NCBI GenBank assembly: GCA_009746045.1
Contig: RPFO01000102.1
Location: forward strand, 2,125,577-2,189,576
Direction: 5' to 3'
From: Mesostigma viride
Lineage: Eukaryota > Streptophyta > Mesostigmatophyceae > Mesostigmatales > Mesostigmataceae
DNA: 64,000 nucleotides
The position numbers and the translations under genes were made by a program. The notes beneath the pieces are model-generated. The model had not been told where the DNA came from. It did no database searches and saw only the letters and a list, made by a program, of their open reading frames with translations. This document shows positions 8,541 to 59,628 of this stretch, piece after piece. Position 1 is the first letter of the stretch. Each line of letters opens with the position of its first letter.

Positions 8541-8992
8541 AGTTAGATGAGATGCTTAGGCTGACACACGGATTTCCGGCCTGCGCGCCGCGTATTGCCT
8601 ACCGCGGCTGAGCGGGACACCTCAGTACAGTACGGCAGGGTGTACGGTACTGAGGTGTCATGTGGACCGATGTGCGGTTAGTGCCAGACTGTTCCTAGGT
8701 GCTAGCTCGACCCGCCAGGTCCGGTGTAGCCGGGCCTGACGGGCCGAGTCTTAGCTGGTTGCTAGTGACGTGGTCGCATGGCATTGCAGTGTACAGTTGT
8801 CCACTGGTCGTGTGCTGCAGGTAGCACCGCCATAGGCATATAGGCGTAGCACTGGGGAGTGCCACAGCACCCGAGTTTGCCCAGTTCCATTCTGAGCCCT
8901 CAGCTTTCATCGCTCTCTCATTGTATTATTGTAATACAATCATCATTCGCTTCAGCTTCGCAGTTGTTCGTCGTCCTAGTCTCCATCCAACT
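8541..8992 (+). repeat. E1 5' LTR
   Basis: This 452-bp LTR begins AGTTAG and ends CCAACT, which are inverted except for one base. Sequence after it starts TGGACTGAAAAG, the place of the primer-binding site; I cannot assign the tRNA. The adjacent base pairs 8536-8540 are the left target duplication. Confidence 0.92.
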
Positions 8993-9037
8993 TGGACTGA
9001 AAAGTTCGATATTTTTTTTACAAGCAAAAAAAAAGAT

Positions 9038-11411
9038 ATGGCTTCCAACAACGGCAACAACGGCAACAACAACAAGGGGAAGGCGCCTGCCAGGCGCACC
9101 TCACCCCGCTTTCGCCGGAGGGCACGCCCTCCACCAACGATGCGAGGGTGACGCCCAACGTCCCTTCCGCACGGTGGTCGCTGACCACCCAGGCGTCGGG
9201 GCCCGCAGGTGGGGCCCGGCGCCCGGGGATGGCGAGCGGTCGTCCGTTTGCCATGGCGGTTCGTCCGCCATGGCACCTGGGGGGCAGGTCCCCCGGGCAC
9301 GCAATTCCCCCGTCGCAGGTGACGGGGGTCGTGAGCGGAGTGATTCCTCGAGGAGGATGGCGAGGTGCCGCCTGCGAGGCCTCGGCCTTCGCTCGAGCTT
9401 TCGTCGCAGACACCTGCGACGTCTGGCAACCTTTCCGTGGGCCGACAGATGGCCACCATGGACATTGACCGGTATGGGGAACATGTTCCGCCCCCGGTCG
9501 CGTTCGGGCGCCCCCCCATTTTCTCCCCCTTGGGGAGGACGACATCCCGGCGTTCATTGCGGTGAACGGCCGGATCATGCACCAACGTTTTCAGTTGCTT
9601 CCAGATGAGGAGATACACGCGATAGAGGTTCATCGGGTGCACACGCTGATCGAGGGGCGTCTTAGGATGCAGATCCCACTGGTTCAGGTGGCGGTTTGGC
9701 TGTACTGTTTCGCCAATCGGCCGAGGCACAACCCCGGCACTGTTGATCAGTGGGCGTCCAGGCAGCGCCAGAGAGAGGCGCTGCGCGTGGTCCCAGACCA
9801 GAGATCGCGCTGACTCCGTTGGGGCCGTGGCCCCAAGTCACGCCAGTTGGCTGGGGCCCGGATAGGCGTGAGGCGGCTGCGATGCCGCCTGCGACGGGGC
9901 GCGGGGCGGCAGACGCCCCCAACACGCCCATGGGTGGTGAAGCCACCCAGGACCCTCTGGCAGGTCAGAGGGTCCAACCTCAGCCGCAGGCTCCCCCGCC
10001 CAGCGTGGGGGGCCAGGTGGCTGAGGAGGCCACCGGGGTCGCAGGGACCCCGGCGGCGACACAAGCGCCCGGGGTCGCAGGGACCCCGGCAGCGACGCCG
10101 GCGCCTCCGGCGCTGGCGGGGGATGCAGCCCCCATGGAGGGTGTCACGGGCACCTCCAGCGGCTCTGGGGGGCAGGCCCCCTCTAGTCGCAACAAGGACA
10201 AGTCCCTGGCAGGGCCGGAGGGGCCCCAGGGTCCCACCGCAGCTGGGCAGCAACCAGCACTGCTGGAGGGCGACCTGCAAGGTCGCGACTTCATCACCCT
10301 GGGTGATGAGGCCGTGTGGCGTGCCATACAGACAGCCACAGCCTCCTTCCGTGGGCTGGCCGACAGGAGCCAGCAGATGCATGTCGCGGAGGCGGGCAGC
10401 CTGGTGTGTGCAATCATCACGCACATCCTGGGCCTGCCCAACCTCCAAGCGGGCACACGTAGGGTGTGCGACGACCTGCTGCCTGCCCTGCAGGCTCTCC
10501 TCTCAGGGAGGAGGGTGCAGGGCAGCAGGGTGCGTCTGGTGCGTTTGCTGGAGCTCCTGCACAACGCCATCCTGAGAGGGGCGGGTAGGTGGCTAACTCT
10601 GCCTACCTGGTTGCATCATGATCTTACTAACCCTACTGACGATGAAGTGTCCCTCTCTCCCACCTTCCATGATTGGGAGGAGGCCCGCAGCAGGAGGCGG
10701 GAAGTGACACACACTCACACCCCCAACCAGCCCACCCCTATGTTGTCTAACCCTCCTACACAGCCCATGTTTGCCCATCCTGCTCAGCTCACTCAAGTAG
10801 CACTTCCCTCTCAGCAGGTCTCTCCTGTGAATGCTGCAGCAGCAACACCATCTTCTCCCTCTCCCCCTGCATCCCCCTCTAGGTTGCCCACTTACAATGA
10901 AAACCGTCCTGTGGATAGGATTAATGTCAGGGGGCTGCCTGAGGGGTATACTAGGGAGCAGGGGAATCATGCACTTCTCTCTCTGCAGCTGGCTAGGGAG
11001 GAACTGAATGTCAAGAATTGGTTTGGATCTCTCATGCAGGGGGATTTCTACCATCAGTCCTCTTCTCAGATTCAGAATCTCATTCTTGTCTTCCAGCGTA
11101 GGTATCCCAAGTGGCAGGACACGCAGGCTAGGGCAGTTTGGGAGGCTTTCATGAAGGAGCTAACTGACCTCCTCTCCACCCCCTCATCTGTGGACATATA
11201 TGGGGCATTCAGGTGGGTAGAGGAATACAGGGTCACATCAGTGGACTATGTGGCTGAGACAAAGAAATATGAGCTAGCCATCAAAGCACGTCCTGATGTC
11301 CAGCAGCTAGATCACAAGTTCTTGCTGCGTTCTTTCCTTGAGAAACTCAAACTTGACAAAAACACCTACGCTATGCTTGCCACAGGATGGCAAAGTACTG
11401 GGAGGACATGA
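9038..11411 (+). pseudogene. E1 gag, broken by frame changes
   Basis: Gag probably begins at the ATG at 9038 (MASNNGNNGNN). Coding-like sequence then moves through several frames up to about 9750, each change equivalent to a one-base loss. From 9750 to 11411 one frame stays open for about 550 codons. It holds a proline/alanine-rich region, then a helical region (about 10880-11400) typical of copia-type gag (NWFGSLMQGDFYHQ, LEKLKLDKNTYAM). The frame ends 25 bp into the next ORF, which carries the rest of gag. Consensus errors or real decay could explain the breaks; a programmed frameshift near 11355 (CAAAAAC) is possible but not supported. Confidence 0.65.
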
Positions 11412-11701
11412 AGGAGGCATTGGATTATATCAAGCTGGCCTTGGCTCCCCTTAGCCAGGGGGCCATGGGCACCTCTGTAAAGAGGGTCAGGGGGGAAGAG
11501 AGGGAGGAGGAGGATAGGGAGAGGGAAGACAGGAGCAAGAGACCTGTCACTATGGCAGAAGTCAAGTCCCTGCTGGGACAAATGTTTAAGGGCAAGGGCA
11601 AGGGCAAGGGCAAGGGCAAGGGCAGGGGCTGGGGCAAGGGCAAGGGTAAGGGGCAGTCTCCCTCCAAGGGGGGCAGCTCCAGCAACAACAACAACAACAG
11701 T

Positions 11702-11752
<51 letters not shown>

Positions 11753-13452
11753 AACAACAACAACAACAAGAAGCAGGACAAGGAGGACAAGTCTTCTCAG
11801 CGGTGCACCCGCTGTGGCATGAAGTACCACCTGCGGCCCACCTGCCGCAAGAACGTGGACGAGCTGGGGCATTTGGACGTCCTGTGCCACAAGTGCCACG
11901 GGCCGCCCCACGGTGACCCCAAGGACTGCAAGCGGCCTCCTTACGGCAAGAAGTGTGAGTCTCCCTCTCATGCTGGCTTGAGTGTGCCTGCTTCACCTTC
12001 TTCTTCTGCATGCCCCACTGTCAGAGCAGTGAGCAGTTCTGGAAAGGTGCTACAGCTGGTTTCAGAAGATTATGTCTCTAAACCAACCTTCACATCTATG
12101 GTTCCCAAGGTGTGCAGAGTGTCCCCAGCAGAGGATGCTCAGATCAGTTTTCAGGAGCTTGCTTTGCAGTTGCATTTCCTTTATGGGCATGAAGTGAGTG
12201 CAGAGGTGGTGGCAGCAGCAATAGGGGGGGCAGCACTCAGACGTGCATGCCAGGTGGTCAGATCCCACTGCCAGCATTGTCAGTTCAATGCACCCAAACC
12301 CCCTAAGTGGCATGTAGCTACCCCACCTAAGAGCAAGGGCAGGGTGGTAGGAGATGTCTTTCATATCAAAGGACAATCTTACTTGGCACTTAAAGATGCA
12401 TGGTCAAGGTACACAACCATTGAACCATTACCTGGAATGGACAAGACACAGTTGCTCAGGGCTCTCTTGATTGCTCAGGCCAGGTACTACCCTGTGGAGG
12501 CATTGTTACTGGATCAGCAGTTCACATGTCTTGCCAATGAACCAGGGTGTGAGGCTATTGATCTGGCTGGGCTAGAAGATCATGAGAGGCAAGGCATTAT
12601 TGAAAGGGCCATCAGGTCCATTAAAACCCTTGTAGCCAAAGAAGATGGCAATCTGCTGGCTGACAGTGGGTCCTATGCTGACAGAGCTCTGTGGTCCACC
12701 AGGTTGTGCCAAGTCCTCAACAGGAGGCCACTCATGAAAACCCCACAAGGGGTGGTCATTACACCAGATGGATTGCATGCAGGCATTTATCCACCTGAGG
12801 TACTAGCCCTCTACAACGCACAGCGAGCACAGACAGCTAGCAGGTTAGCTGTCAAGGATGCAAAGCATCCACGTCCCACCTTCAGAGAAGGGGATCAGGT
12901 CCTATTCTACAAGGAGTCGGGACTAGGCAAGGTGGGTACCTGGCATGGGCCAGCCACCATCCTAAAGTTTAACACCACTGGCAGGACAGTGTTAGTTAAA
13001 CACAATGACACGGGAAAAATTCACAGGTGTTCACCTCACAGGATGAAATTGTATTTTCCAACTGTGTCAGACGTGGCAGAGGAGGAAGAGCTGTTGGCCG
13101 ACAGCCCTGTACAGTTGCCTGGCATCCCAGCGTTGCCCAGTGAGTGGTTGTTTGGAACACCCACTGGTGAGTGTGAGAGCCACACCCACTGTGACACCCA
13201 GGTCACCCTTGATGATTGCAGGCAGTCACTGCAGGATTGGCCCCCTGCAGCAGAGGGTCACATTGGCAAAACAGGTGATCAGCAACCTATCACCTCTACA
13301 AGTGTGAACATAGCTCAGCCACTAGCTGCACCTTCCAAACGCAGCCTAGCAGACGCTGTTCGCATTTTACAAGCAGCTCATAGAGCCAAAGCTCAAACTG
13401 CTGCAGGATCAGCTAAGGTGGGGAAGGTTGGGCAGAATGACAATAGCCCATT
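11387..13452 (+). CDS. E1 gag C-terminus and integrase
   Basis: The ORF opens with the end of gag and a Gly/Lys repeat. A run of about 25 Asn (CAA/AAC repeat near 11684-11769) follows, then a CCHC zinc knuckle (CTRCGMKYHLRPTC, near 11804). Integrase follows directly with no protease between them. It has an HHCC-type zinc region (LHFLYGH ... CQHC), then catalytic D (GDVFHIKG, about 12352), D (LLLDQQF, about 12508) and E (GIIERAIR, about 12597). A C-terminal SH3-like part follows (FREGDQVLFYK ... WHGPA). The second D and the E are 29 residues apart. The open frame runs on into the nested insertion and ends at 13687; the genuine pol sequence stops at 13452 and resumes at 15416 in the same frame. 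Confidence 0.88.
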
Positions 13453-15415
13453 CATGTCCCACGTAGCTCCCACAAAAACCAGCATCTTCATTAAAACAAT
13501 AAGTGGAAGCATACATGTGACACTAATTGACATGCCCGGAGGCACGCCGTTCAAGGCCCTTCATGAAGTACGTTGCCCTAGAGGCAACCAAGACAAGGGT
13601 GGGTGGGTGGGGAGCAAAGAAAGAGGCCGACAAAACCAGCCAGAGCGGCTTTTAGTCGCAAAACCTCCCTTATCCCTAGCTAACTGACATCATTAAACCC
13701 TTATGTTTAGTGGATGCTAGTAAGACGCTAACCGTACAGACCGGGGGTAGAATATCCCGAATCTGCACGGCTAGTATTAAATAATGCGTAGGTTGTTCTT
13801 TTCAGGGGCACTGCACCTCACGCCCCGTTCCGCCCGGGTATAATCAACCCAAGCGCGGAACGCACATTTTATTTAATTCATTTTTCAACCATGCACTATA
13901 TTGCATCTACTAATCACAAAAGCTCTAGCCAAACAGCTACGAGTAAACACTGCGACCTATAAGCCGCTCATCCAGCGGCCTCTTGTTCCCGCATTCACGT
14001 ATAGAAGAAACTCCGTTCAAAGAACCCCGATTCATGTCCCACGTAGCTCCCACAAAAACCAGCATCTTCATTAAAACAATAAGTGGAAGCATACATGTGA
14101 CACTAATTGACATGCCCGGAGGCACGCCGTTCAAGGCCCTTCATGAAGTACGTTGCCCAATCACCCCCGCCCTGGCTTTCCCTTGAAGCCGCACTCCACC
14201 TTGCTCGTTGTCACAAGTGACCGCCCTGCCGCAAAACGGGAGCCCCCCCACATCGGGAGGCGTGTGCCCGGCGGCTGTGGATGCATGGCCAGGCCCAAAA
14301 AGGCCCAGCGCATTTGCACTGCGATTGCGCACGGCCAGCCTATCATGACCCCTCTCGGGGCCCCGAGTCGGTACCGCTATGGCCGTCTCCCCATAGACCC
14401 GGGGTGCTTCGAGAAAAAACGTGGACCTAGCCCAGGCCCCGCCAGCCCGGATGCCCGAGGCCACAGCCCCAGGCACCTGGCTGAACGAGAGTCCGTTCAG
14501 CCAAGACCGCATTCCCCCCGAGGTTTCTATGCGTGGGGAAAAAATTTCTAGCTTAGACGCTTTTCCCATCGCCGTCCCCAGCCCCAACCAACCCCCCCTC
14601 GGCGGAAGGCAATTGCAAAGTTTGCTGGCCAGCAGCAATTTCCGAAGAAAAAGCCGCAGGCCGCGGACCGAGACACGGGTCGCCAGTGCCAGCCATCCGG
14701 CTCCAACCCGGGGTGCAAGCATCCCCAGGTACGGAGCACCAGCTCGCGCACTGGGCCGACCAAGCGACAGTTGAGCACCTGTCACGGCATCCGGCCCACC
14801 AAAGACCCCAAGCTGGGGAAAAGGTGCGGACCGGAGGTAATCTTTTTCTTTTCTTTTAGTTAACCGGGCGAGGAACTACGCCTGGCCGGTTAACAACTGG
14901 AAGTCTCACCACTGGCCAAGTGGCCAGTGCAACCAGTGCTTTTGGGATTTTGCTCCGCAGCACCCATAGCTGCGGCTGCCGCCGCAACGACAACGAGCAA
15001 AGAAAGAGGCCGACAAAACCAGCCAGAGCGGCTTTTAGTCGCAAAACCTCCCTTATCCCTAGCTAACTGACATCATTAAACCCTTATGTTTAGTGGATGC
15101 TAGTAAGACGCTAACCGTACAGACCGGGGGTAGAATATCCCGAATCTGCACGGCTAGTATTAAATAATGCGTAGGTTGTTCTTTTCAGGGGCACTGCACC
15201 TCACGCCCCGTTCCGCCCGGGTATAATCAACCCAAGCGCGGAACGCACATTTTATTTAATTCATTTTTCAACCATGCACTATATTGCATCTACTAATCAC
15301 AAAAGCTCTAGCCAAACAGCTACGAGTAAACACTGCGACCTATAAGCCGCTCATCCAGCGGCCTCTTGTTCCCGCATTCACGTATAGAAGAAACTCCGTT
15401 CAAAGAACCCCGATT
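13453..15415 (+). mobile_element. Nested tandem insertion in E1 pol: A-x-B-A-C-B
   Basis: Block A (126 bp) occurs at 13453-13578 and 14033-14158. Block B (421 bp) occurs at 13612-14032 and 14995-15415. Between A and B lie 33 bp in the first copy and 836 bp in the second. So two head-to-tail copies of one element (580 and 1383 bp) are joined directly, and ATT precedes each of the three junctions. Removing all of it fuses integrase to protease in frame. B contains several stems, for example GCCGCT/AGCGGC at 15346-15362 and GTTCCGC/GCGGAAC near 15210-15240. No transposase, TIR or splice sites are evident. Helitron-like, retrozyme-like or ribozyme-bearing elements are possible. Confidence 0.8.
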
Positions 15416-17477
15416 TATGGTTGCAGTGGACACACAAGCCCAGGTCAGCATTATCAGTGCCCTGGCTGTGCCCCATTTGCCTTTGGAACCTTCACCCTGG
15501 CACCATGTGGCTGATTTCTCAGGGCAATCATCCCTCAAGGTATTAGGTCAGGTCATGTTGACTATACTTGGTATCCCCACTCCTTTTCAGGTATTGGAAG
15601 GTTATAAAGGGAATGCTCTGTTGGGGGATCCCTTTCTCTGTTACCCTGGTGTCATTATCTCCAGTGATAGACTATCCATTCAGGACCTGGGTGGTGTTGA
15701 TTTGAATCACTTCAAAATTTCTCTTGAAAAACTTCTTAACACCAACATTGCTTCTGTAAAATTTGCCACACCCAAGTATGCCCCAGGGCAAGAACCCTGT
15801 GTGGCAGACTTAGTTCATAACCAAAAACTTCACCCCACCTCATTTGGTTTGGGCAAGCATGATGTGGCTAAAATGTCTCCTCTTTCCTATGAACAGATAG
15901 AGCAAGACTGTCGCACACACATAGGATTTCTAAAATGGGTGGAGGCCTTTAACAAGGCCAGGGAAGAATGGGTAGTGCCAGATCCTCTTAGTCCTTCTCA
16001 TACTCCCCCTGTCACACCTATTGACAAAAAGCCTGCAGGGTGCAAGCACTTGCGCCTGAAGTTTGTGTGTAAACATAAGCCAGCAGCAGATGGGTCAGTC
16101 ATCTTTCATGCTAGACCTTGTGTGACAGAGTTCAAGGGCACCACTGATCTGACAGAGGCAGAGTTGTACACGCCAGGCATTCAGCAAACATCCCTAAAAA
16201 TCTTGCTGTCTGTCTTTGTGGGTCATCTCAATGATGGGGATGACTATATCTGTAAGGCTACAGACATTAAAAGGGCTTTCCTGAAAGGCTCACCTGAGAT
16301 AGCACAACAAGTGTGGCATGGTCAGGTGTACGTAGTCTCCACTCCCAGAGTTTGGGCAAAACACATCCCTCAGCAGTACCTGAAAGCTAACATAGGTGTT
16401 GAAGGGCTGCAATCAGCTCCTCGCATTTTCAGGATGTCAGCTCAGGCTGTGTTTGAAAAGTTAGGGGCTAGATATGATGACATAGACCCTTGCTTCTTTG
16501 TGGTCCCACACCCTCATGGCATACTCACCTTTGTGTGGCATGGGGATGATCAGCTGATTGCTGGGCCAAGGCGTGCTGTAGATGATTTTATTCAACAAGT
16601 GTCACAGCATTTTGAGATTGGCAAGCAAGTAGAGCTGGGCACCACTGCCATAAAATTTTGTGGCACAATGTTACAACTCCAGCAGCATCAAAACCAGTGG
16701 GTGTGTGCACTTTATTCTCCCAATGATTACATGCACAGCTGCTTGGAGGTTTTGCAAACAAAAATCAAACCTGGAGCCTGTCCTACCATTAGAGGCAAGC
16801 TGGGGTGGTTGTGCTCAACGTGTGCACCTCACCTGGCTGTGGTTAGCAGAGTTGATGATGATGTCTTGATGCAAGTAGGTCACAAAGCCATCACCAAAAC
16901 TCTCCAGGAGGGCCCTCCCCTTATCTTGCATTCCTTGGATCTCCACAAAACCATTCACATCCAAGCTATGATGGATAGTTCCATGGAGTCCAGGCAGATT
17001 ACCAAGTTGCAGGCAAGGGAGTCAGGCTTGTATTTTGTGCAGAATGATGATGCACCCTTGTCTCTCATTTCATGGTACAGCCGGTTGCATAGACGCAAGG
17101 CTGTCAGCAGCAACGCTGCTGAGTGCAGGGCAGTGGTGTCAGCAGTGCTTCATGCCAGGTACTTGAATCATGTGCTGGTTTGGTTGCAGATGCAAGCAGG
17201 CAGCAATGCTGGGGTGGTGGCACACTTGCTCACTGACAGTCAGTCAGTCCTCAGTTTCCTTGCTAACCCCTATGCTGTGCATACTGATCTTGACTGGGTG
17301 GTCCTTAAACAGGAGTCCACCTACTGGGAGTCCACCCGTCACGTGGAGGACAAACACAACGCTGCTGATGCACTCACTAAAGTGCCTCAGCAGGCAGCTG
17401 ACCAATACCAGCTGTTGTACCACTTGATGAACCCCTATGGCAAGCAGGCAACCCTGCCCCATAGGGGGGACGCCTAG
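15416..17477 (+). CDS. E1 protease, reverse transcriptase and RNase H
   Basis: The frame opens inside the nested insertion at 15366, but element sequence begins at 15416. A retropepsin-like domain comes first: VAVDTQAQVSII (active-site position) and, about 60 residues later, LLGDPFL. The usual DTGA or DSGA reads DTQA. Reverse transcriptase follows, with TDIKRAFLKGSPE (motif A) and FVWHGDDQLIAG (16539-16550) in place of YVDD. RNase H ends the protein, with D (MMDSSMES), E (AAECRA), D (LLTDSQS) and D (NAADALTK). This is the C-terminal order of copia elements except that the protease sits here and not before integrase. The protein ends at a normal stop, about 1.07 kb before the 3' LTR. Confidence 0.9.
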
Positions 17478-18546
17478 CAGGGTCCTGTTCACCAGGGCCG
17501 CCTAGGTCACCCAGTACCCCTTGGGCAGGTCCAAGGGGTACTAGGTTGTGGCTTCCAGCACGGGGGATTGGTTGGAGTCTGTTTTTCATACATCTGCGTG
17601 CCCGATGCCCAATAAAATCTGTTTTGATTTTTTCAACACCATGGAATTTCGTTGTGCACACCTTCATAGGTGGGCATGGGATGTATCTCACACCTTTATA
17701 CACTAGGGCGTATGCCTTGGTGGATTGGCCTTGAGCTCAGTGGCTCAGGTGCCCCCCATTCAAGTGGAGGGTCAAAGCTCCCTTGACAGGTGGTTACCCA
17801 GGACCCCAGTTCACTGTGGATATCCTGAGCCACCTGGCCTCACTGTTCAGTGGCAGTAAAGGCATGGGTGCTGTCATGTTGTCTAGTACAACGTGCTCAG
17901 CACAGGTGCAGGATGAAATATTCCTGTCACCTGTCACCAGGACTTTAGTCACCCATGTGCAGGGCAGGGGTGGCTGGTCTCACACGTGGTGCAGGTGCCA
18001 TGTGGCCAGGTCCAGGATGTCATAGTCCTGTCACCTGTCACTCGGACTTCAGCCCCCTCTGTGCAGGGCAGGGGTGGCTGGTCCTCACATGTTGTGCAGG
18101 TACAACATGGACAGTGCAGGGTGCAATAAACCTGTCCACTGTCACTCCTCAGGTTGCAGGTAACCTGAGCTCAGTTGACCCAGCCTGGCTGGGTATTTTT
18201 TCTCTGAGTGGGCGATGATGATGGAACAACATGGAACCTCTTAAACGGTTACCTTGGCATTTTTACATTGGCTCTCTTGGCTGGTGATGCACTCCCTGGA
18301 TAGGCAGACAGGCATAGCTATCTCCCTTGTGAGCTCGCGAGGAGGAGGAAGTCCCCGGGCATGTTGAGCTAAACGTGATGCCATCACAAGTATTGCACGA
18401 GTTCTGGGGCCCATCTTTTTCAGTCCAGATGTTGCAGTATGGGTGTCAGTTGCTCAGCACCTCAGTCAGCTTGGAGTCAGTCTCCTAGCTGGGCAGGGTC
18501 AGGCTTGAAGTCGCTAGCCTTCAACCTGAAAGGAAAACATAATGGG
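17478..18546 (+). other. E1 3' non-coding region with repeats and polypurine tract
   Basis: About 1.07 kb without a convincing gene. Near 17880-18150 a unit of roughly 100 bp recurs two to three times, recognisable by GTGCAGGGCAGGGGTGGCTGG and ACTGTCAC or ACCTGTCAC. An AATAAA lies at 17611. The last 20 bp (AAGGAAAACATAATGGG) serve as the likely polypurine primer for plus-strand synthesis. Confidence 0.6.
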
Positions 18547-19001
18547 AGTTAGATGAGATGCTTAGGCTGACACACGGATTTCCGGCCTGCGCGCCGCGTA
18601 TTGCCTACCGCGGCTGAGCGGGACACCTCAGTACAGTACGGCAGGGTGTACGGTACTGAGGTGTCATGTGGACCGATGTGCGGTTAGTGCCAGACTGTTC
18701 CTAGGTGCTAGCTCGACCCGCCAGGTCCGGTGTAGCCGGGCCTGACGGGCCGAGTCTTAGCTGGTTGCTAGTGACGTGGTCGCATGGCATTGCAGTGTAC
18801 AGTTGTCCACTGGTCGTGTGCTGCAGGTAGCACCGCCATAGGCATATAGGCGTAGCACTGGGGAGTGCCACAGCACCCGAGTTTGCCCAGTTCCATTCTG
18901 AGCCCTCAGCTTTCATCGCTCTCTCCTTGTATTATTGTAATACAATCATCATTCGCTTTCAGCTTCAGCAGTTGTTCGTCGTTCCTAGTCTCCATCCAAC
19001 T
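18547..19001 (+). repeat. E1 3' LTR
   Basis: 455 bp, matching the 5' LTR over its length with a handful of differences near the end (for example GCTTTCAGCTTCAGCAG against GCTTCAGCTTCGCAG). It is followed at once by CCAAA (19002-19006), the right target duplication. Confidence 0.92.
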
Positions 19002-19042
19002 CCAAAGTTGTAGCTAGCTGCGTATCTGGGGCGGGAAGCCAT
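19002..19042 (-). pseudogene. RING gene, first part of exon 1
   Basis: The ATG is at 19042-19040 on the minus strand. Thirteen codons follow before the CCAAA duplication and E1. The frame continues at 8535 after removal of E1 and one duplication copy, giving a basic, Gly/Ser-rich N-terminus. A TATA box (TATAAAG) at 19116-19122 on the minus strand is 80 bp upstream. Transcripts starting here now run into the antisense E1 LTR. Confidence 0.85.
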
Positions 19043-19109: not shown

Positions 19110-19873
19110 TCTGGTCTTTATACCTGCGCAGGCCTTGGTTGACGAGACAGTCCCGTGGCTGGCAGGCTATCTACGTGGTCTTGCACGGGCAATCTGGCTA
19201 CGTGGAAGCGCGCTCGTCGTTTATGCGCCAAAACCTTATCCACGGGACGCGTTTTTTTACGTTACAAATCCCGTGGCAGCATAACGGTCAGAAATATCCG
19301 TCCACGGGGATTAAGGATTTTCGGTTTTGAGCCCCGTGGCAGAGTAACTGTCGGATATTTTTGCCACGGGGAAAGAATTTTTACGTTACAAATCCCGTGG
19401 CAAAATAACGCTCGAAAATATCCGTCCACGGGGACAGAAAAAAACCGATTCGGGCCCCGTGGCAAAGTAACTGTCGGATATTTTTGCCACGGGGAAAGAA
19501 TTTTTACGTTACAAATCCCGTGGCAAAATAACGCTCGAAAATATCCGTCCACGGGGACAGAAAAAAATCCGATTCCGGTACCGCGGCAAAGTAACTGTCG
19601 GATATTTTTGCCACGGGGAAAGATTTTTTACGTTACAAATCCCGTGGCAAAATAACGCTCAAAATGTATGGCCACGGGAAATTTTTCCTCGTAACCGTCA
19701 TACCGTTTCCCGTTACAAACCTCGTGGCTCGCCACGAGCCGTCGATCTGCTGAATTCTTCTAGACCACGGGAATTGCAGCCCCGTGGGTATAAATGCAGG
19801 ACTTGCACCACCTCGCCTCGCATCCCACTCGCATCCACCCAGCTCTCTCAGCAACCAAAACCAACCAGCTCCA
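19110..19873. promoter_or_regulatory. Divergent promoter region with CCCGTGG repeat array
   Basis: The region separates the RING gene (minus, TATA 19116-19122) from the gene at 19874 (plus, TATA 19789-19794). From about 19250 to 19680 a unit of about 120 bp is repeated three times or so. Each unit has CCCGTGGCAAA, a stretch ending in ATATCCG and CCACGGGG in inverted orientation. Near the plus-strand TATA lies a 16-bp palindrome (19722-19737), matching that at 50-65, and CCACGGG at 19765. The design suits a shared binding-site array that serves both genes. Confidence 0.65.
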
Positions 19874-21139
19874 ATGGCTACCTCCTCCGCCATCTCTGCT
19901 CCTCGCCAGCGTGGGCCGCACAGTGCTCCCAAAGTCAAGAAAACTCGCCACTTCAACATTCTTTTCCACCCAGTCACCGGCGAGCATGCATGCGAAGTCC
20001 ACCTTCCTGAGGCTTCTCGCAGCGTTTTGAACGACATGATGGATCACTACGAGACGAGCAACATCATGATGAACAAGAAGCGCATTCGCTGCGTCGGCTG
20101 CGACAAGATGAGGTCTCTCAAGCACTTCTGCGAGTTTGACGAGGATTACAAGATGCGCAACAATCACAGCTTTTCCCCCTGCGACGGCCATTTCTGCGAC
20201 TCGTGCGAGTACCTTCAGCAGAACAACATGCTGAAGAGCATCCCCACGAAGGACTGCGCCAAGTGCAAGAAGCCGACTCGTGTGGATCTCCTCAAGATCG
20301 ACTGCAACGGCAAGGCCGAGCACTGCATCAGCTGCTGGGACCCCGCATTCGAGCAGTTCGCGTTCGAGCACGAGCGGACGAAGAAGAGGTTCCCCGAGCT
20401 GCTCCAGATCTACCCGGATATGGAGGACACCGCCGAGTTCATCAAGTGGCCCACGCCAGGCACCTACACCGTCTCTGAGCCGAACTTTGCTCTCACCGGC
20501 CCCACCGACCCTGGCAAGGTCAACGTCAAGGTCGAGGAGCGCGACCAGCCCTTTCTTCGCGGTGGCTACAAGAGGAAGCAGGAGGACACAAACGACTACC
20601 TGAGGTCTTGCGGGCTGTTCAACGACGCCATCAAGAAGCCCAAGGTCGACATCGAGAACTTCAAGAGCGACTTCACCAAGGAGATCTCCAGGATCAAGTG
20701 GGAGTGCGAGAAGCGCAACTATGTCTCCCACCTCAGCTTCGTCTCTTTCACGCTGTCCGAGTCCAACCTCACCAGCACCGTCACTCCCGGCACCAAGGAG
20801 TTCGAGCATCTGAAGAACAAGTTCTGCGGCGTCAAGGCTGCCAGCAAGCAGATGGGCTGCAACCACCAGTTGGACGTGCCCTCCAAGACCTGCAAGGTGT
20901 GCAACAAGAAGGCGCACTACCTCTTCACCGCCAACGGCCACAGCATCGACAACGACGTCGTCTGCAGCGAGTGCGTCCTCGACACTCTGCGGGAGGCTGG
21001 CACCAAGAGTGTCTCCTGCCCCATCTGCGAGGGCAAGGACTCCAAGCACGACCTGTGCTTCCCGTTTTTCCGCTACGACTCCGCAGAGTCCTGCTATGCA
21101 GCTGTCATGAACCAACTGGCCGCCCCGCGTGCCCTGTAA
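19874..21139 (+). CDS. Protein with two Cys/His-rich zinc domains, RING-like C-terminus
   Basis: 421 residues, start at the first ATG, 85 bp after the TATA box. The N-terminal third has paired cysteines (CVGC, CDGHFCDSC, CAKC, CISC) consistent with two interleaved zinc sites. The middle (about 160-300) is charged. The C-terminal part has CKVCNKKAHYLF, a GHSIDNDVVCSEC segment and CPIC, in RING-like C..C, H, C..C, C..C order. A RING-type ubiquitin ligase is the best guess; the exact family is not recognised. There is no intron. Promoter and 3' hairpin resemble those of the 213-1643 gene, and it is divergent from the RING gene that E1 disrupts. Confidence 0.75.
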   Translation: MATSSAISAPRQRGPHSAPKVKKTRHFNILFHPVTGEHACEVHLPEASRSVLNDMMDHYETSNIMMNKKRIRCVGCDKMRSLKHFCEFDEDYKMRNNHSFSPCDGHFCDSCEYLQQNNMLKSIPTKDCAKCKKPTRVDLLKIDCNGKAEHCISCWDPAFEQFAFEHERTKKRFPELLQIYPDMEDTAEFIKWPTPGTYTVSEPNFALTGPTDPGKVNVKVEERDQPFLRGGYKRKQEDTNDYLRSCGLFNDAIKKPKVDIENFKSDFTKEISRIKWECEKRNYVSHLSFVSFTLSESNLTSTVTPGTKEFEHLKNKFCGVKAASKQMGCNHQLDVPSKTCKVCNKKAHYLFTANGHSIDNDVVCSECVLDTLREAGTKSVSCPICEGKDSKHDLCFPFFRYDSAESCYAAVMNQLAAPRAL

Positions 21140-45017: not shown

Positions 45018-45480
<463 letters not shown>

Positions 45481-45488
45481 GTCATACA

Positions 45489-51539: not shown

Positions 51540-51572
<33 letters not shown>

Positions 51573-51596
51573 GACCACAGTGGCCGCCGCGGTATC
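51209..51596 (+). CDS. E3 gag, N-terminal part (split by E2)
   Basis: Starts MPRKRREPVHRE. The first 80 residues are charged; from about 51463 a CAG-rich stretch encodes Gln runs (QQQQGFQQQQQ). At 51596 the frame is interrupted by E2 in codon 130. The E2 target duplication GTATC (51592-51596, again at 59629-59633) allows exact joining to 59634, and the frame is then open to 61210, 654 codons in total. Confidence 0.85.
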
Positions 51597-52292
51597 AGTT
51601 AACGCCAAGCGCATTGGCGTGATCCTGATTCGGCATATCTCTGCGATTCCAGCGGCACCGGAACGAGTTCATTCCGACAAGTATCAAGAAAGTTATGGCG
51701 TTCCGACTTCCCGGTCGCGCGCGAGCGCGAGCCGGCTGTTCTTCTAAGTCGGACGTGAATATTTGCCGACGACATATGGGGTCGACAGTAATTCCTGGGC
51801 TGACAGGAATTAGGTGCTGTACCTACGACGGTATTGGATTAATACGTCGTACGCAGGAAATAGGAACCTTAACCTGTGGTCTGTTGGTACCGCAGGCTTA
51901 GTCCTGGACTTCTAGGTGCAGATGCAATAATCACTGTGGTGACTGTACTCTGTGGTCACTGTGCCTGTATGGCAGACCTACTGTATAGGAGCTGGGCGCT
52001 GTACAGGTAGTGAATACTGTACCGGGGTGTTATTACTGAGCAGGCCTCCTAGGCTGCTCAGGACTAGCAAGCACAGTGCACAAGTATATAAACAATAGGC
52101 CAGTGCCAAATGGGCATCTCTTGCGAGCCCGCCTCACGTGTTGTGCCTTGACTTGGCAAGCTCGTGTGCAAGCCTCAAGTGTTGAGCGCTGTAAACATTA
52201 TCCGATTTAACAAAGCTCCGTTTCCAACCATATTCACACATTGCTGCATTGCAACCATATCCTTCACATTGCGTGTGCGAAGAACGTTAACT
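51597..52292 (+). repeat. E2 5' LTR
   Basis: 696 bp with a TATA box (GTATATAAACAAT) at about 52084-52096 in the last third, where the R region should begin. A palindrome, GCCAAGCGCATTGGC, lies near the start. Sequence after the LTR starts CAAATTACAACC; the primer tRNA is not recognised. Confidence 0.93.
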
Positions 52293-52385
52293 CAAATTAC
52301 AACCAGTCTCAGCGGAACGGCCAGGAGGGTCGTTGCCGGTTGCGGTGTGCAGCTTTGACGACGAGAGGAGCTCGTCCGGTGGTGA

Positions 52386-53304
52386 ATGGTGCAGGAGGAA
52401 CAACGGCAGCAGGATTTCCGGTTTCGGCAGTCTGCTGGGGGTTCGATTTCTCCTGAATTACGCCGTGTCGTTCGGGATCTATCTTTGTTGCTTGCAGATC
52501 GTCCGCCTGTAAATCGCAGCTTCGTGCAATTCGTCGACGACCAGGTCGAAGATTGGGAGCGAATTCTGCGACACGTACAAACCATCGTCATTCCGGAGCA
52601 CCGGAGCATCGACGACCTTGAGCAGGAGCTTCACGGGTTGGTCGGCATCCAGACGGTGATTACTGCAGTAGCAGAGCGAGTGCGGACGGAGTTGGCAGCA
52701 AGGCGAGGCGAGGTTGCGGAGGCAGCTGGCGCAGGGCGACACGAGTTTGTGCCGACAGTAGCGGGCGCGGGAGTACCACGTGCTTTCGCAGGCGGCATCG
52801 GCGACGAGGGTGTTGCAGCGGGTCCAGTTAGGCGTGAACGACGCGGAGCGGAGCATCACAGGCGGCTTGCAGAGGTCGGGGCGACAGCGGAAGCCATCGC
52901 CGGAGGACCGCGCGCACAAGAGTCGGCAGGTTTCCAGAGCGAGTAAGAGTTCCTTTTCAGGAACTGCCCCCGCCCCTTCGCGTTCGTGTGACGCGTTGGG
53001 AGGAGTTTGCACCTCTTGGTACGAGAGTGACCTTGAGGTAGGAGCAGGGGGTGTCGCTGGGCTAGGCGACGAGGCACTCGGCGACCACGAGGTGCCAACG
53101 TACAATCCGCGAGGTGCCAACGACGGGTTGTCACCTGTCTACTTTACCAACGGTGACGATTCAGTCATCGCGGGCCGACAGCGGGTCGACGACGGCGCAG
53201 CAGGTAGCAGGGTACCAGAGCTGATTGTGGTGAGCGACAGCGACGACGACAGCGACAAGGAGAACCAGGACGCGCCTGGGGCCAGCCGTGGTGGTCTTGC
53301 CTGA
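52386..53304 (+). pseudogene. E2 gag-like leader ORFs
   Basis: Two overlapping frames (52386-52946 and 52780-53304) without known domains. The first, starting MVQEEQRQQDFRF, has helical coding-like content; the second ends in an acidic tail (SDSDDDSDKENQD). They may be an extra ORF or the broken N-terminal part of gag. A frame change near 52800-52940 would be needed to join them. Confidence 0.4.
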
Positions 53305-53406
53305 GTGGTAACACTTGGCACTTTCCTTTCTTGTTCAGTAGCTTATATTGCTTTAATTGCTGCTTGGCCACTTGGCTGGCTGTAGCAGATCTGAACAGAG
53401 GCCATC

Positions 53407-54592
53407 ATGGAGGATGGAGCTATCAACCAACAAGCGGGCTTTATGGGCTTCGGACGGCGCGGCGCTGGGCTGGATGGACGAGATGGACGCGATGGACGCG
53501 GTGGACGCGATGGACGCGGGGACGGCCAGGCGCTGGGAGACCAGGCTGAGGTGCCAGATAATCAGAGCCAAGGATCGCAGGGCGGGCAGCACGCGCCAGC
53601 CGCAGATCAAGCGGCGCCTAAGCGACCAACCGTTGCTGAGGGGTACGCGGTGCTAGGCCAGTTTCAGTCCATCAAGGACAATTGGCAGCCCCGGGATGCT
53701 GAGAGGATGTTAGAGGACATGAACTTGTACACGGAGATATACAACGGTGACAAGCTTCGCATCCTGGCGTCTAGTGCCTACATACGGCAGTCGGCGAGGC
53801 GGCTGTTCAAGTTTGTTCGGGAGCGACACGCGGCGGGGGACACCTGGGCGGCGTTTATGACGCGACTCAGGTGTTCCTGAGTGACAAGAGGACCATAGAT
53901 GGGTCCCACCTGAAGCAAGAATACCTGGACTACAAGCCCATCAAGGGGCAACTAGTGGTCCACGCCTTTGAAGACTTCGTCAAGCTGAGGGAGGACGCCA
54001 TGGCCAAGGGCTTCTTCGTCGCAGATCGGATGGCCATGGGCGACTTTCTCAAGTCGCTGCAACTGGATCCGGTCACCATGGATAATGTGACCATCCACAT
54101 GCGACAGGTCCATGGCTGGGCAGCCATGACGGATCAGTTGTATGAGTGTTTCAGCGGCAAGTACGTGGGGGTAAGCGCCCTCGTCAGAATGATGAGGAGG
54201 CCACTGAACCCACGGTTAAGTCCATGAGGGGATCGGGCCACGGGGGCCCAGCGTCCTCGAGAGGGCCTGAGACCTCTTCAAGGGGTCGAGGAAGGTCCAG
54301 GAGGGGGCGTGACAGAAGGGCTGGACGGGGGACCCCGCCGAAGTCGGGACATCCACAGTCCCAGTTTGACTTCAAGAGGGTGGGTGGTCCTCCCAAGGCT
54401 GGGCCCAGCAGTGGGACCTCACGGGACATCAGTCAGGTGGAATGTTATTTCTGCCAGGGGAAGGGTCACTTCAGGAATGAGTGTCCCTCGTACCTGAGGC
54501 AGGAAGGTCAGAGCAAGCCAGCTCAGGGTGGCAGCAAGGACAAGGCTGGTCCATCCCAGGACAAGGGCAAGGGCAAGGCTGCTGATCATTGA
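53407..54592 (+). pseudogene. E2 gag with CCHC knuckle, two one-base breaks
   Basis: Starts MEDGAINQQAGF, followed by a Gly/Arg/Asp repeat (DGRDGRDGRGG). The gag core (NWQPRDAERMLEDMNLYTEIY; LKQEYLDYKPIKGQL; LKSLQLDPVTMDNV) resembles copia-type UBN2/gag. Frame breaks lie near 53870 and at GGGGG (54167-54171); one added base at each restores a single frame. A knuckle (CYFCQGKGHFRNEC, 54443-54484) follows a basic region. The frame ends with TGA at 54590-54592, directly followed in the same frame by pol. So gag and pol differ by one UGA codon. Confidence 0.7.
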
Positions 54593-57500
54593 TATGAGCC
54601 TGCACACATCCCTGAACCCTGGAGGGTGCCCCCAGGGGTGTGTAATGAAGCTGCTAGTGACAGCAGTGAGGGGCAGCCCCATGCTCTAGTGAAAGAGCCT
54701 ATTGGACACGATGGGGCAAGCTTGGTTACCACAGAGAGTATGCCAGCTGTAGCTGCAGTGGTTACTCGCCAACGTGCCCGCCATGGCGGTGCTGAGCCTG
54801 AGGTAGGACCTGGTGATGTGGACCCAGGTGGATCTCAGAAGCATTCTGACCGTGCAGGACTGGCACAGGATGGTCAGGATGAGGATAGGGCTGGAGACAG
54901 TCTGACAGGCACGACCCTGGTGCCTCCTGTACATAAGGGATCTGTACATACCTTGAGTGCTAATAATGACAATAAAAGGTTTTCTCTCTTGTATGACATT
55001 GCCTCAAGGTTGCATACCATGTTTGGCCATGCAGCTCAGTCTTTGCAAGTTGCTAGACGGCTGGGAGGAAGTGAGTTGTACTCCATCTGCCAACAGGTTG
55101 CTCAAGCTTGCAAGTGCAGGCTAGTTGCTAGAAAGCCCAAGCAGTCTCATGCCAGGACTCCTATTTTGCAGCCAGGCCATGTGCAGGTAGATATTCAGAG
55201 AATCAGGGGTTTGAAGCTGCTGGTGGCAGTGGACAGATATACCAAGTACAAGACCCTAGAGATCCTGCCTGACATGGAGAAGCCTACATTGATTGCTGCT
55301 CTGAAGTTGACAAGGAGCAGGTACCCTGGGTTGGAGTTGTTGCAGTGTGACATTCAGTTTGAGTGCTGTGAGAACCTGCCAGAGTTTCCAGAGTTGCTGA
55401 TTACACCCAGGGAGAGCCACGGCCAGCAAGGGGTGGTGGAGAGAGCCATCCAAGAGATCAAGACTGTGCTGCTGGTGGAGAGGATTCCAAGGACGTCATC
55501 TGCCATTGTGACATCTGCATGGCTACGTTCTGTGGAGGACAGGCTGAACCTGAGGACTCCCATGTTCTTTGGTGACATTGCCATCAATCCTCTTATGCTG
55601 CATACCAGGATGCTGCCAGCTGATGCTGAGCAGGCATGGAAGGAGAAGCTAGAGGCCAAGTTCCTCAAGCTGAGGCAGAAAGACAAGGGCTGGAGTGTCC
55701 TAGAACCTAACGTTGGACAACAGGTTGTTGTGTGGAAGGAACCAAGCTTTCCAGGGAAACGTGGCAGCTGGCATGATGGGGTGGTGACCCGAGTAGAAGC
55801 CGCTGGCCATAAGTGCTGGGTGGCCATTGATGGCTCCCAAGCAGTGCACCGTCTGTCCTGGTCAAAGATCCGTCCCCGGGGAGGTAATCAAGGAGACCTC
55901 TTCCAGGTGCCCGCTGGTGTACAAGGCGGGGGTGACGTGGAGCTTCCTGATCAGGGTGCTACAGCTGTATCGAGCCCTCAGGGTGACCCTGGCCCGGCCC
56001 CTGGGGTACCTTCACATACGGTGGTTGGGCAAGCAGGCGGACAGGCTGCACCTCCGGAACGGCCCGACACCAGGCCTAGGGGTGTGCGTCTATCAGATAT
56101 TGTACAGGCTTTGCAAAGAGCCAAGAAGGAGCCTAAGGTGTCCAAGCTTGTCCAGTTGGATGAACCTGAGGTAGCTGCCATGGAGATAGATACCAATGCA
56201 CAGGTTTCTGTCATGGGACCTCAGCATACAGGAGAACTGCTGGTCGGAGAACCAAGTTGCCCCTGGGTGTCTGATTTCAGTGGTAGGACGCATCTAAGGG
56301 TGTTGGGAGAGGTTACTGCCCCTGTCATGGGTGTGGATGTGACCTTCCTTGTCCTAGAGGACTATGATGGCCCTGTGATTTTGGGTCAGAATTTTCTGGG
56401 CAATCCTGGGATTTCTATCAGAGCTACAGCTCTGAGAAGAGATGGCTGGGGGATGATTCCCCTAGAAAATTTCAGGACAACATTTCCAGTCAGGTGCAGG
56501 GCCAAGCCGGTCAAGGGTGTAAAATGGGATGAAGGGGAGGTGCCCCCAGCGGCCAGTTTGGTGATTCCAGCTGTGTTGCACCCCAGCAGTATTGGCATAA
56601 CTCACAGGAGCCTTGCTGCACACTCTCCTTTGACATATGACCAGCTGGTCCAAGAGATGAGCTCGCCTACTTTGTTTGAGGCTTGGAAGCTCGCCTTCTC
56701 CAAGGCATTGGAGGAGTGGTTGCAGTTTGAGTGTGCTGCACCAACAGACAGACGTCCCCCAGCATCAAGGAAGCTTGCTTTGAGATTTGTGCTGAAGAGG
56801 AAGGTTGTGGATGAGGTATCAGTGCCCCATGTCAGGCCTGTCCTGAATGAGTATCACGGCACGGGGAGTCTGCCAGGAGAGGAGCTATACACGCCAGGGA
56901 TGCTACACGACACATGGAGAATTTTGCTATGTCTCTACGTGGGGTTGCTGAACAGGGGAGCAGCTATGTCATCAGTGCTGCTGGACTTCAAGAGGGCATT
57001 TTTAAAATCTGATCCAGAAGTGGCCAGGAGGGTGTGGAAGCAGGATGAGCCTTACTGTGTTGAGGTGCCTGCCATCTGGAAGCTGGAGCTGCATCAACAA
57101 TTCCTGGTTATTCTGAAGGGCCTGGAAGGACTCAGGTCGAGCCCAATCATCTGGAGACTCACGCTGCAGGAAGCTCTGATCAGTGAGTGTGGCTTGAGAG
57201 TGTCTTCAGTTGATCCCTGTTTGCTGCTGGCCCAATGGGAGGGTCTGCCAGTGTATGCTAGTTTGCATGGAGATGATCTGCATTTGCTAGCCCCCACGAC
57301 CTGGCTGAAGAAGTTTATTCCTGTCATCAGTGGCAAGTTTTCACTGGGCAAGGAGCTGTGGCAGGAGCCCAACAAGCCTGTAGTGTTCTGTGGAATGCAG
57401 GCTACCCTGTTCAGGAGGGACGGGGAGTGGAGTATCAGGCTTCAGGCTGGAGGAGATTATAAACAGACCATTGTGAAGGCCTTGCCAGAGAAGATCACCC

Positions 57501-58183
57501 AGGCTGCAGGACCTGAGTTGAGAGGCATGTGGGCCTGGTTTGCCAGCATCTGTGGTCCGTCTTTGATGGTCCATAGCAGAATGCCTGATGAGGTGCTTGA
57601 GGATGAGAAGCCTCGAGTCATAGCCCGGTTGGTGGAGAGTACCCCTGATCTGATTTTGTCTGGGATTGACTTTACCCAGCCTATCACCTTGGAGATCTTT
57701 GTTGACAGTTCCATGGATGCTCGCCAGGTTACCAAGGTCAGGGGGAGATCTGCTGCTCTGTTTGCTTTTTATCAGAGCAGGGCAAGTTTGTTCAGCTGGT
57801 ACAGCAGACTGCAGAAGAGGGTCTGTATCAGTTCAGATGTGGCAGAATGCAGGGCCATATGCGAGGGGATCCAGTCCAGCCTGTACATAAAGGAGTTAAT
57901 GCTGGAGCTGGCTTCAGTTACCCCTTGGACCTTGCAGATGGAGACGTTGTTGCTAACAGACAGCATGGGTATGGTCCAGTTTGTTCACAAGCAGCTGGCC
58001 AGGAGCCGGGACCTGGATTATTTGTTGCTGAAGGAGTTGGCCAGTTTGGTTGACTTGAAGCATATCCCTGGCGAGGAGAACCCTGCTGATGCATTGACAA
58101 AGCTGCCACACAAGGCCCCAGCCCAGTACAATGTACTGAGGAAGCTCATGAATGCTGACTGTCAAGTCGGTCTATCTGTCTAA
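54593..58183 (+). CDS. E2 pol: integrase, protease, reverse transcriptase, RNase H
   Basis: One open frame of about 1,197 codons. Integrase comes first: zinc region (LHTMFGH ... CKC), D (VDIQRIRG, 55189), D (CDIQFE, 55345) and E (VVERAIQ, 55435), then an SH3-like domain (QQVVVWKEPSF). The last D and E are 29 residues apart, as in E1. The protease follows near 56187 (EIDTNAQVSVM) with VILGQNFLG 60 residues on; DTNA replaces DTGA. Reverse transcriptase has LLDFKRAFLKSDPE and SLHGDDLHLLA (57266-57277). RNase H has D (FVDSSMDA), E (VAECRA), D (LLTDSMG) and D (NPADALTK). All catalytic residues of the last two domains are present, so the element may be active. Confidence 0.93.
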   Translation, partial: YEPAHIPEPWRVPPGVCNEAASDSSEGQPHALVKEPIGHDGASLVTTESMPAVAAVVTRQRARHGGAEPEVGPGDVDPGGSQKHSDRAGLAQDGQDEDRAGDSLTGTTLVPPVHKGSVHTLSANNDNKRFSLLYDIASRLHTMFGHAAQSLQVARRLGGSELYSICQQVAQACKCRLVARKPKQSHARTPILQPGHVQVDIQRIRGLKLLVAVDRYTKYKTLEILPDMEKPTLIAALKLTRSRYPGLELLQCDIQFECCENLPEFPELLITPRESHGQQGVVERAIQEIKTVLLVERIPRTSSAIVTSAWLRSVEDRLNLRTPMFFGDIAINPLMLHTRMLPADAEQAWKEKLEAKFLKLRQKDKGWSVLEPNVGQQVVVWKEPSFPGKRGSWHDGVVTRVEAAGHKCWVAIDGSQAVHRLSWSKIRPRGGNQGDLFQVPAGVQGGGDVELPDQGATAVSSPQGDPGPAPGVPSHTVVGQAGGQAAPPERPDTRPRGVRLSDIVQALQRAKKEPKVSKLVQLDEPEVAAMEIDTNAQVSVMGPQHTGELLVGEPSCPWVSDFSGRTHLRVLGEVTAPVMGVDVTFLVLEDYDGPVILGQNFLGNPGISIRATALRRDGWGMIPLENFRTTFPVRCRAKPVKGVKWDEGEVPPAASLVIPAVLHPSSIGITHRSLAAHSPLTYDQLVQEMSSPTLFEAWKLAFSKALEEWLQFECAAPTDRRPPASRKLALRFVLKRKVVDEVSVPHVRPVLNEYHGTGSLPGEELYTPGMLHDTWRILLCLYVGLLNRGAAMSSVLLDFKRAFLKSDPEVARRVWKQDEPYCVEVPAIWKLELHQQFLVILKGLEGLRSSPIIWRLTLQEALISECGLRVSSVDPCLLLAQWEGLPVYASLHGDDLHLLAPTTWLKKFIPVISGKFSLGKELWQEPNKPVVFCGMQATLFRRDGEWSIRLQAGGDYKQTIVKALPEKITQAAGPELRGMWAWFASICGPSLMVHSRMPDEVLEDEKPRVIARLVESTPDLILSGIDFTQPITLEIFVDSSMDARQVTKVRGRSAALFAFYQSRASLFSWYSRLQKRVCISSDVAECRAICEGIQSSLYIKELMLELASVTPWTLQMETLLLTDSMGMVQFVHKQLARSRDLDYLLLKELASLVDLKHIPGEENPADALTKLPHKAPAQYNVLRKLMNADCQVGLSV

Positions 58184-58931
58184 AAGCTGAGAGCTGGGTG
58201 CTTAAGTCTCTGGATATCAGGCTGGGAGCTTGATTGTACATAATCCTGAGCACACCTTGAGGGGTGAGACATGTCTCTGGTGTGGGAATGTCTGACATTG
58301 TCTCTGATGGAGAGATGTCTATCTGGGGTTTTCATCTCAGTCTGAGGTTTCCCCAGATCTGTGGTTTGTGGGCGGGGTTCGATTCCCTGGTGCCGTCTTA
58401 AGGCGGAGTTTCACGGACTGGCTGACCCATCCACCATGCTGGTGAGGTGGCGACAGGTCCCCTGATTTTCCACGGTTGGAACGAGTAGAGGAGCTTGTGT
58501 TTTGCATGTGCTTCGCGTAGATGTTGTGTCTGGTTCGATAAGGGGCAGCAGACCGGCGCCGACTCCCGTCTGGGGGTCAGCAATGTTTTCTGATGAGCTG
58601 TTGTGGGTGATCTGTGGGGTTTCGCCTAAGGTCCTGAAGGTTGTACATACTTCTCAAGTTCTTAACTGAACACCTATGGGCTGCCACAGTTGGCCAACCT
58701 CTTGTACATGGGTAACACAACGAGCCTCCCGTGAAGGGATAGGGACTCATTGTAATTTGTTTGTGCTCCTGAGCCAGTATGGGTGCTATGTACATATAAT
58801 AAGGAATCCAAGCTGACTGTCATGCCCAGCGGGTTGTGACTTGTAGTCTGGGGAGGATATCCAGTACCCATTGTGTGTGTTTGTATGTAGACTTGTGTGA
58901 GCTGCTACAGCTCAAGAAAAGAAAGGATTGG
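58184..58931 (+). other. E2 3' non-coding region
   Basis: About 750 bp without a gene between pol stop and the 3' LTR, ending in the polypurine tract. E1 has the same layout with 1.07 kb. Confidence 0.6.
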
Positions 58932-59628
58932 AGTTAACGCCAAGCGCATTGGCGTGATCCTGATTCGGCATATCTCTGCGATTCCAGCGGCACCGGAACG
59001 AGTTCATTCCGACAAGTATCAAGAAAGTTATGGCGTTCCGACTTCCCGGTCGCGCGCGAGCGCGAGCCGGCTGTTCTTCTAAGTCGGACGTGAATATTTG
59101 CCGACGACATATGGGGTCGACAGTAATTCCTGGGCTGACAGGAATTAGGTGCTGTACCTACGACGGTATTGGATTAATACGTCGTACGCAGGAAATAGGA
59201 ACCTTAACCTGTGGTCTGTTGGTACCGCAGGCTTAGTCCTGGACTTCTAGGTGCAGATGCAATAATCACTGTGGTGACTGTACTCTGTGGTCACTGTGCC
59301 TGTATGGCAGACCTACTGTATAGGAGCTGGGCGCTGTACAGGTAGTGAATACTGTACCGGGAGTGTTATTACTGAGCAGGCCTCCTAGGCTGCTCAGGAC
59401 TAGCAAGCACAGTGCACAAGTATATAAACAATAGGCCAGTGCCAAATGGGCATCTCTTGCTAGCCCGCCTCACGTGTTGTGCCTTGACTTGGCAAGCTCG
59501 TGTGCAAGCCTCAAGTGTTGAGCGCTGTAAACATTATCCGATTTAACAAAGCTCCGTTTCCAACTATATTCACACATTGCTGCATTGCAACCATATCCTT
59601 CACATTGCGTGTGCGAAGAACGTTAACT
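58932..59628 (+). repeat. E2 3' LTR
   Basis: 697 bp, begins AGTTAACG directly after AAAGGATTGG and ends CGTTAACT, followed by the GTATC duplication (59629-59633). Differences from the 5' LTR include CCGGGAGTG against CCGGGGTG, CTTGCTAGC against CTTGCGAGC, and CAACTATA against CAACCATA. Confidence 0.93.

Follow-up and report, generated by a model that had tools for sequence, protein, structure and literature searches.

Results

Two LTR retrotransposons with an altered pol order

The window analysed here, a 64-kb stretch of the genome of the streptophyte alga Mesostigma viride, contains two long terminal repeat (LTR) retrotransposons, E1 (positions 8541-19001) and E2 (51597-59628), whose LTRs, ORFs and domains described below lie on the forward strand. 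In both elements, an integrase-like domain is followed by a retropepsin-like domain, a reverse transcriptase (RT) and an RNase H. The two LTRs that bound E1 (8541-8992 and 18547-19001) match in 451 of 455 aligned columns, and the element is flanked by the target duplication CCAAA (8536-8540 and 19002-19006). The LTRs of E2 (51597-52292 and 58932-59628) agree in 694 of 697 aligned columns and are flanked by GTATC (51592-51596 and 59629-59633). The LTR pairs and target duplications, together with a zinc knuckle, integrase, RT and RNase H, identify both as LTR retrotransposons. The LTRs of the E1 and E2 families start with AGTT and end with AACT, and not with TG and CA. No site for the usual initiator tRNA-Met primer was recognised by eye beside the 5' LTRs (half-tRNA sites were not tested), and no tRNA genes were found in the window.

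E1 carries a gag-like open reading frame (ORF) of 553 amino acids (9750-11411), which has no Pfam match, and two zinc knuckles (CTRCGM.. and CHKCHG..) at 11804-11929, starting at 11804 and 11885. The integrase-like domain with its conserved C-terminal module spans 12173-13060 and contains an HHCC motif, the acidic residues D (12353), D (12512) and E (12602), and a match to the Pfam family rve (expectation value, E, of 0.017). The retropepsin-like domain lies at 15405-15725, with the motifs DTQA (15429) and LLGDPFL (15618). It is followed by an RT of the copia type at 16026-16625 (HGDD at 16539; RVT_2 match with E 1.1e-9 over ORF residues 221-420) and by an RNase H at 16971-17384, recognised by the motifs MDSSME, AECRA, LTDSQS and ADALTK and by hhalign comparison with copia RNase H.

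In E2, a zinc knuckle (CYFCQGKGHFRNEC, 54443-54484) precedes a single pol ORF of 1185 amino acids (54626-58183), which encodes the same series of domains. The integrase-like domain and conserved C-terminal module lie at 55013-55880 (HHCC; D 55190, D 55349, E 55439), the retropepsin-like domain at 56162-56488 (DTNA 56189, ILGQNFL 56378), the RT at 56740-57600 (HGDD 57266) and the RNase H at 57698-58102 (FVDSSM, AECRA, LTDSMG, ADALTK; hhalign). The RT was assigned by hhalign comparison of the group with copia RT and by its position in the tree described below. Along the series of motifs, the RT starts at about 16050 in E1 and at about 56774 in E2. Between the knuckle region and pol, and in the same frame, a TGA codon is found at 54590-54592, which is also present in another copy, L041, and is possibly the gag-pol boundary of E2.

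A sequence-only reading of this DNA had placed the integrase of both elements right after the gag zinc knuckle, followed by a protease-like domain, RT and RNase H, and the motif positions bear this out. The same reading described both copies as nearly intact, which does not hold: a nested insertion at about 13447-15419 breaks the pol of E1 just 5' of the protease-like domain, while in E2 it is gag whose frames are interrupted. The insertion contains two internal direct-repeat pairs of 425 and 133 bp, at offsets of 1383 and 580.

The order itself does not stem from damage or misassembly, as had also been argued from the sharing between E1 and E2, because uninterrupted natural copies and relatives from several families carry it as well. 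L037, a natural copy without the insertion, encodes all of these parts in one frame of 1505 amino acids, with the knuckles at residues 269 and 296, HHCC at 392, DTQA at 822, LLGDPF at 886, HGDD at 1193, AECR at 1386 and ADALTK at 1468. L040, an 83% relative (1371 amino acids, one frame), has an identical domain order, which is also found in L044 (P0003 family), L080 (P0002 family) and the full-length P0001, whose weak Pfam matches run rve, gag-asp_proteas, RVT_2. The altered order is thus present in six sequences, namely E2, E1/L037 (counted as one), L040, L044, L080 and P0001. This count leaves out P0004 and P0006, which belong to the eight rows of the tree below and start within the protease-like domain and the RT, respectively, as well as L038, which is cut within the integrase, and L039, a recombinant with two RT parts.

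The domain between integrase and RT

The inner domain contains the motif DTxA, in which x is N, Q, N, K, M and Q in the six sequences, so that the pattern D-[ST]-G does not occur, and the residues neighbouring x (D, T, A, V and S) are invariant. A two-motif retropepsin pattern, which was devised after the sequences had been viewed, occurs at exactly two places in the six frames of the window, the E1 and E2 domains, and never arose when three pol pieces were each shuffled 20000 times. The Pfam family gag-asp_proteas was matched by three of the six members, with P0001 scoring best (E 0.0016, profile positions 14-91 of 92), followed by L040 (E 0.065, positions 9-90) and E2 (E 0.2, positions 69-91 only). 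Further matches were to Asp_protease_2 (P0001, 0.09) and Peptidase_A2_2 (L040, 0.14), and one was to an unrelated family, DUF6898 (E2, 0.11). The best matches are to aspartyl proteases, with almost the entire profile covered in two distinct families, which weakly suggests that the domain is a retropepsin. Longer E1 and E2 segments matched no protease in Pfam, and a search of NCBIfam yielded no match.

When a trimmed six-row protease profile was compared with the PDB, four matches were obtained, of which ranks 1, 2 and 4 are proteases, presumably retroviral ones, and rank 3 is an acetyltransferase. In the protease alignments, LLGQPFL of the group is placed on IIGRNLL. Matches to the PDB were confined to this trimmed profile, as longer profiles and single sequences gave none. 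In control searches, none of eight linkers between integrase and RT from standard copia elements matched a retropepsin, nor did any of eight upstream or gag segments of the E1/E2 group. Comparison of the inner domain with the copia protease by hhalign also gave no match (probability 0.3).

The ratio of nonsynonymous to synonymous substitution rates (dN/dS) between L037 and L040, calculated by NG86, was 0.12 in the retropepsin-like core as compared to 0.40 in the linker preceding it; it was 0.056 in the integrase, 0.082 in the RT, 0.093 in the RNase H, 0.066 in the stretch behind the core, 0.38 between knuckle and integrase and 0.39 in the gag part, all of which are rough values because several synonymous distances exceed 1. 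The retropepsin-like domain is therefore under purifying selection, like the enzymes and unlike the linkers.

We also looked for a protease upstream of integrase, and none was found, which agrees with the sequence-only reading: the only retropepsin-like stretch found lies in the interval between integrase and RT. No protease profile was matched by four knuckle-to-integrase segments and four gag ORFs, and the E2 gag frames bearing the knuckle were covered by the motif scan only. Pol_BBD, the copia-type protease, was not matched in this group at E up to 10. In E1, just 81 residues separate the second knuckle from the zinc motif of the integrase; the residues available ahead of this motif number 129 within the E2 ORF and 158 in P0001. 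Other D-[ST]-x-[AS] sites in the forward frames (eight in E1, three in E2) did not resemble a retropepsin by eye. Two sites in E1 come closest, one in the RNase H motif (17223) and the other a DSGS (12650), which sits behind the catalytic residues of the integrase and is absent from E2, P0001, L044 and L080. With the short gap in E1 and negative motif and profile searches, a protease upstream of integrase was judged unlikely.

RT, RNase H and integrase

The RVT_2 profile was matched by E1, L037 (2.4e-9), L040 (7e-10), P0006 (2.3e-4) and P0001 (0.014), and not by E2, P0002, P0003, P0004 or L044 individually; RVT_1 had no match in the E1/E2 group. As a group, the sequences aligned with copia references by hhalign, the RT at a probability of 98.1 and the RNase H at 97.7, while a control with a single RT of a long interspersed nuclear element (LINE) gave 0.14. 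In a tree of RT and RNase H, the eight rows of the group are placed on one side of a branch with support of 100/100, opposite the 13 standard copia rows, and the branches between them are very long (2.55 and 2.11); the tree program warned of long branches and of unlike composition for L053, the Mesostigma copia row. The 12 reference rows were taken from contigs that are listed as prokaryotic but which we took to be eukaryotic contamination, and represent 12 of 16 reference contigs, as L007, L008, L011 and L015 were dropped because of a motif outside the RT ORF or a short ORF. By profile comparison and tree, the RT and RNase H are of the copia type and very deep-branching. In all seven reference contigs scanned for domain order, Pol_BBD precedes the pre-integrase domain and rve.

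The integrase was assigned by its HHCC motif and three acidic residues in register. In addition to E1, rve was matched by L037 (0.066) and P0001 (0.15). The third acidic residue is E in E1, E2, L040 and P0001, and D in L044 and L080 (GLIDRH and GKVDRY, respectively). The L080 family, whose integrase has this third-acid D, matches at least 65 places in the host genome at 100%. The second and third acidic residues are 29 residues apart in E1 and E2; the canonical integrase spacing is 35.

Copies in the host genome

The Mesostigma viride assembly comprises 441,847,188 bp, with LTR retroelements reported in a passage of its description as the largest repeat class (27.9%) (PMC6947507). We searched 439.9 Mb in 2243 contigs, and the resulting copy numbers are lower bounds. 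E2 pol was found at 100% in at least 39 places, excluding the copy in the window, and the E1 type in at least 63, of which 46 matched at 95-100% and 17 at 83%. The EukProt proteins P0002 and P0003 match the genome at 100%, and their families account for at least 65 places at 100% and at least 71 matches, some of them fragments, respectively. P0001 as a query identified at least 38 places at 63-64%, none of which is among the places listed for E2 pol; because this is its best match, P0001 derives from another genome. The families with the altered order amplified recently, as dated by LTR identity only. Relatives were not found in the collections of viral contigs, genome contigs and phages.

Further copia families were detected in the same genome by RVT_2, and two were inspected. 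L079 differs from the E1/E2 group in having the standard order, in which Pol_BBD comes first, followed by the pre-integrase domain and rve. L078/L053 fits this standard order as far as it was fetched; the start of L078 resembles a protease end by eye (LLSVAQL) and lies ahead of the pre-integrase domain and rve. The protease motif of L079 is LDSAASSHM, from which the glycine is likewise absent.

Discussion

E1, E2 and their relatives share with Ty1/copia elements (Pseudoviridae) an RVT_2-type RT, a copia-type RNase H, an integrase upstream of the RT, a 5-bp target duplication and a zinc-knuckle gag. They differ from them in that the protease-like domain follows the integrase rather than preceding it, in the lack of a Pol_BBD match, in their LTR ends and in the very long branch that separates them from all 13 standard rows. 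With Ty3/gypsy elements (Metaviridae) they have in common a protease-like domain directly upstream of RT, which is closer to gag-asp_proteas, whereas their RT is of the RVT_2 type without RVT_1 and their integrase lies before, and not after, RT-RNase H. A changed pol order has also been described in a passage on the Gmr1 group, Ty3/gypsy elements with a copia-like integrase position (PMC2774666). However, there the integrase moved within a Ty3-type element, while here the RT is of the copia type and the protease lies behind the integrase. A description of an integrase - protease - RT order was not found by targeted searching of the literature, in which few subscription papers were covered; the absence of a described clade with this order, as had been noted from the sequence, is thus upheld within these limits.

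The sequence-only reading was right that the altered order is real and shared, but it overlooked that a copia-type RT and RNase H are combined with a protease that does not resemble the copia type. We consider it likely that the elements represent a lineage of LTR retrotransposons in Mesostigma viride whose pol joins a deep-branching RT-RNase H of the copia type to an integrase, with a retropepsin-like domain placed between the two, and for which loss plus replacement is the most likely origin. In this history, the copia-type protease upstream of integrase would have been lost, and a retropepsin of another, gag-asp_proteas-like subtype would have come between integrase and RT and been retained by selection. 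This inner domain would fold and dimerise as a retropepsin and cut the polyprotein from its inner position, thereby freeing the integrase, which lies N-terminal to it, and the RT-RNase H that follows it. That the order implies a different route of polyprotein processing had been suggested by the sequence-only reading as well, and would hold only for an active protease.

Several observations weigh against this proposal. No retropepsin match attains the curated Pfam cut-off, three of the six segments (E1, P0002 and P0003) are without any Pfam match, and the PDB matches have E-values of 1.9-3, with no single stretch passing alone. Both AlphaFold models of the domain are poor: the predicted local distance difference test (pLDDT) score is 43.9 in the model of 171 residues and 54.2 in that of 109 residues. 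The glycine of DTG is near-invariant among active retropepsins, and x in DTxA is not glycine in any of the six sequences, which is why we regard the inner domain as a putative protease only. Similarly, the integrase is recognised by motifs and weak rve matches, with no rve match in E2, L040 and L044, and its hhalign comparison with copia integrase is weak (probability 2.0 and 1.3; E 0.024 and 0.04). Lastly, whereas a passage of the Pseudoviridae profile gives the sequence protease, integrase, RT-RNase H (PMC8515867), a sentence in the profile of Belpaoviridae by the International Committee on Taxonomy of Viruses puts the Pseudoviridae integrase upstream of the protease (PMC8742986). We read this sentence as a slip, because the former profile and our seven reference contigs have the protease first.

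One might speculate that the inner domain still has a retropepsin fold and no longer cuts, being retained in front of RT for a structural role or for dimerisation, with processing left to an outside protease or dispensed with. The missing glycine and the variability of the residue replacing it would fit such a change; however, the surrounding residues are invariant, the core is under purifying selection, the families carrying it amplified to tens of matching places, and motif scan and profile searches revealed no other protease candidate in these elements, so that we think this rather unlikely. It seems very improbable that the domain is not a retropepsin at all, and that an unrecognisably diverged protease lies upstream or is lacking. 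Weak profile matches and poor models would be in line with this, as would the room ahead of the integrase zinc motif in E2 and P0001, but aspartyl proteases are the best matches and, in two distinct families, are covered almost from end to end, both retropepsin motifs are conserved, the controls were negative and the interval in E1 is short.

The elements could also have originated from a Ty3-like arrangement by a forward move of the integrase, or by fusion of modules from different superfamilies. In favour of such a history, the protease resembles gag-asp_proteas more than the copia protease, and it is placed directly before RT in the Ty3 order, as given in a passage of a plant reference survey (PMC6317226). 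On the other hand, RT and RNase H are of the copia type, and copia elements likewise carry their integrase ahead of RT. As these are copia-like already, moving or replacing the protease alone is simpler, and we judge the Ty3-derived origin to be improbable. The replacement proposal can be extended to a deep and recently expanding lineage of streptophyte algae with a new pol order, a swapped-in working retropepsin that lacks the glycine, and an integrase that in two families has D as its third acidic residue; this fuller picture is quite conceivable, if somewhat doubtful.

The order of pol domains serves to define and curate LTR retrotransposon superfamilies, and elements with an unexpected order were discarded as likely mispredictions according to a passage of the plant survey (PMC6317226). 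A conserved, many-copy lineage with a third order indicates that domain-order filters can hide real elements, and that a protease-like domain behind the integrase is compatible with amplification. Both the DTxA motif that lacks glycine and the integrase bearing D occur in families whose numerous copies are nearly identical, and they would probe how far these enzymes can depart from their catalytic rules.

Other features of the window

One of the neighbouring ORFs described last was compared with viral contigs and had no relative there, so that a viral origin of the neighbouring genes finds no support from this single ORF. Adjoining E2, a further retrotransposon gag ORF (59738-61210) has weak matches to Retrotrans_gag and a zinc knuckle. 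A LINE-like ORF pair is located at 40714-44179 (Exo_endo_phos, E 4.9e-6; RVT_1, E 4.9e-24). Long spurious ORFs arise from 8-bp satellite and purine/pyrimidine repeats at 44875-46100 and 39495-40097, and 184-bp tandem repeats have an additional copy at 44288. ORFs at 3328-8423, 19784-21139 and 28567-29256 show weak SprT-like, RING or Cys/His-rich features, all of them below the cut-off.

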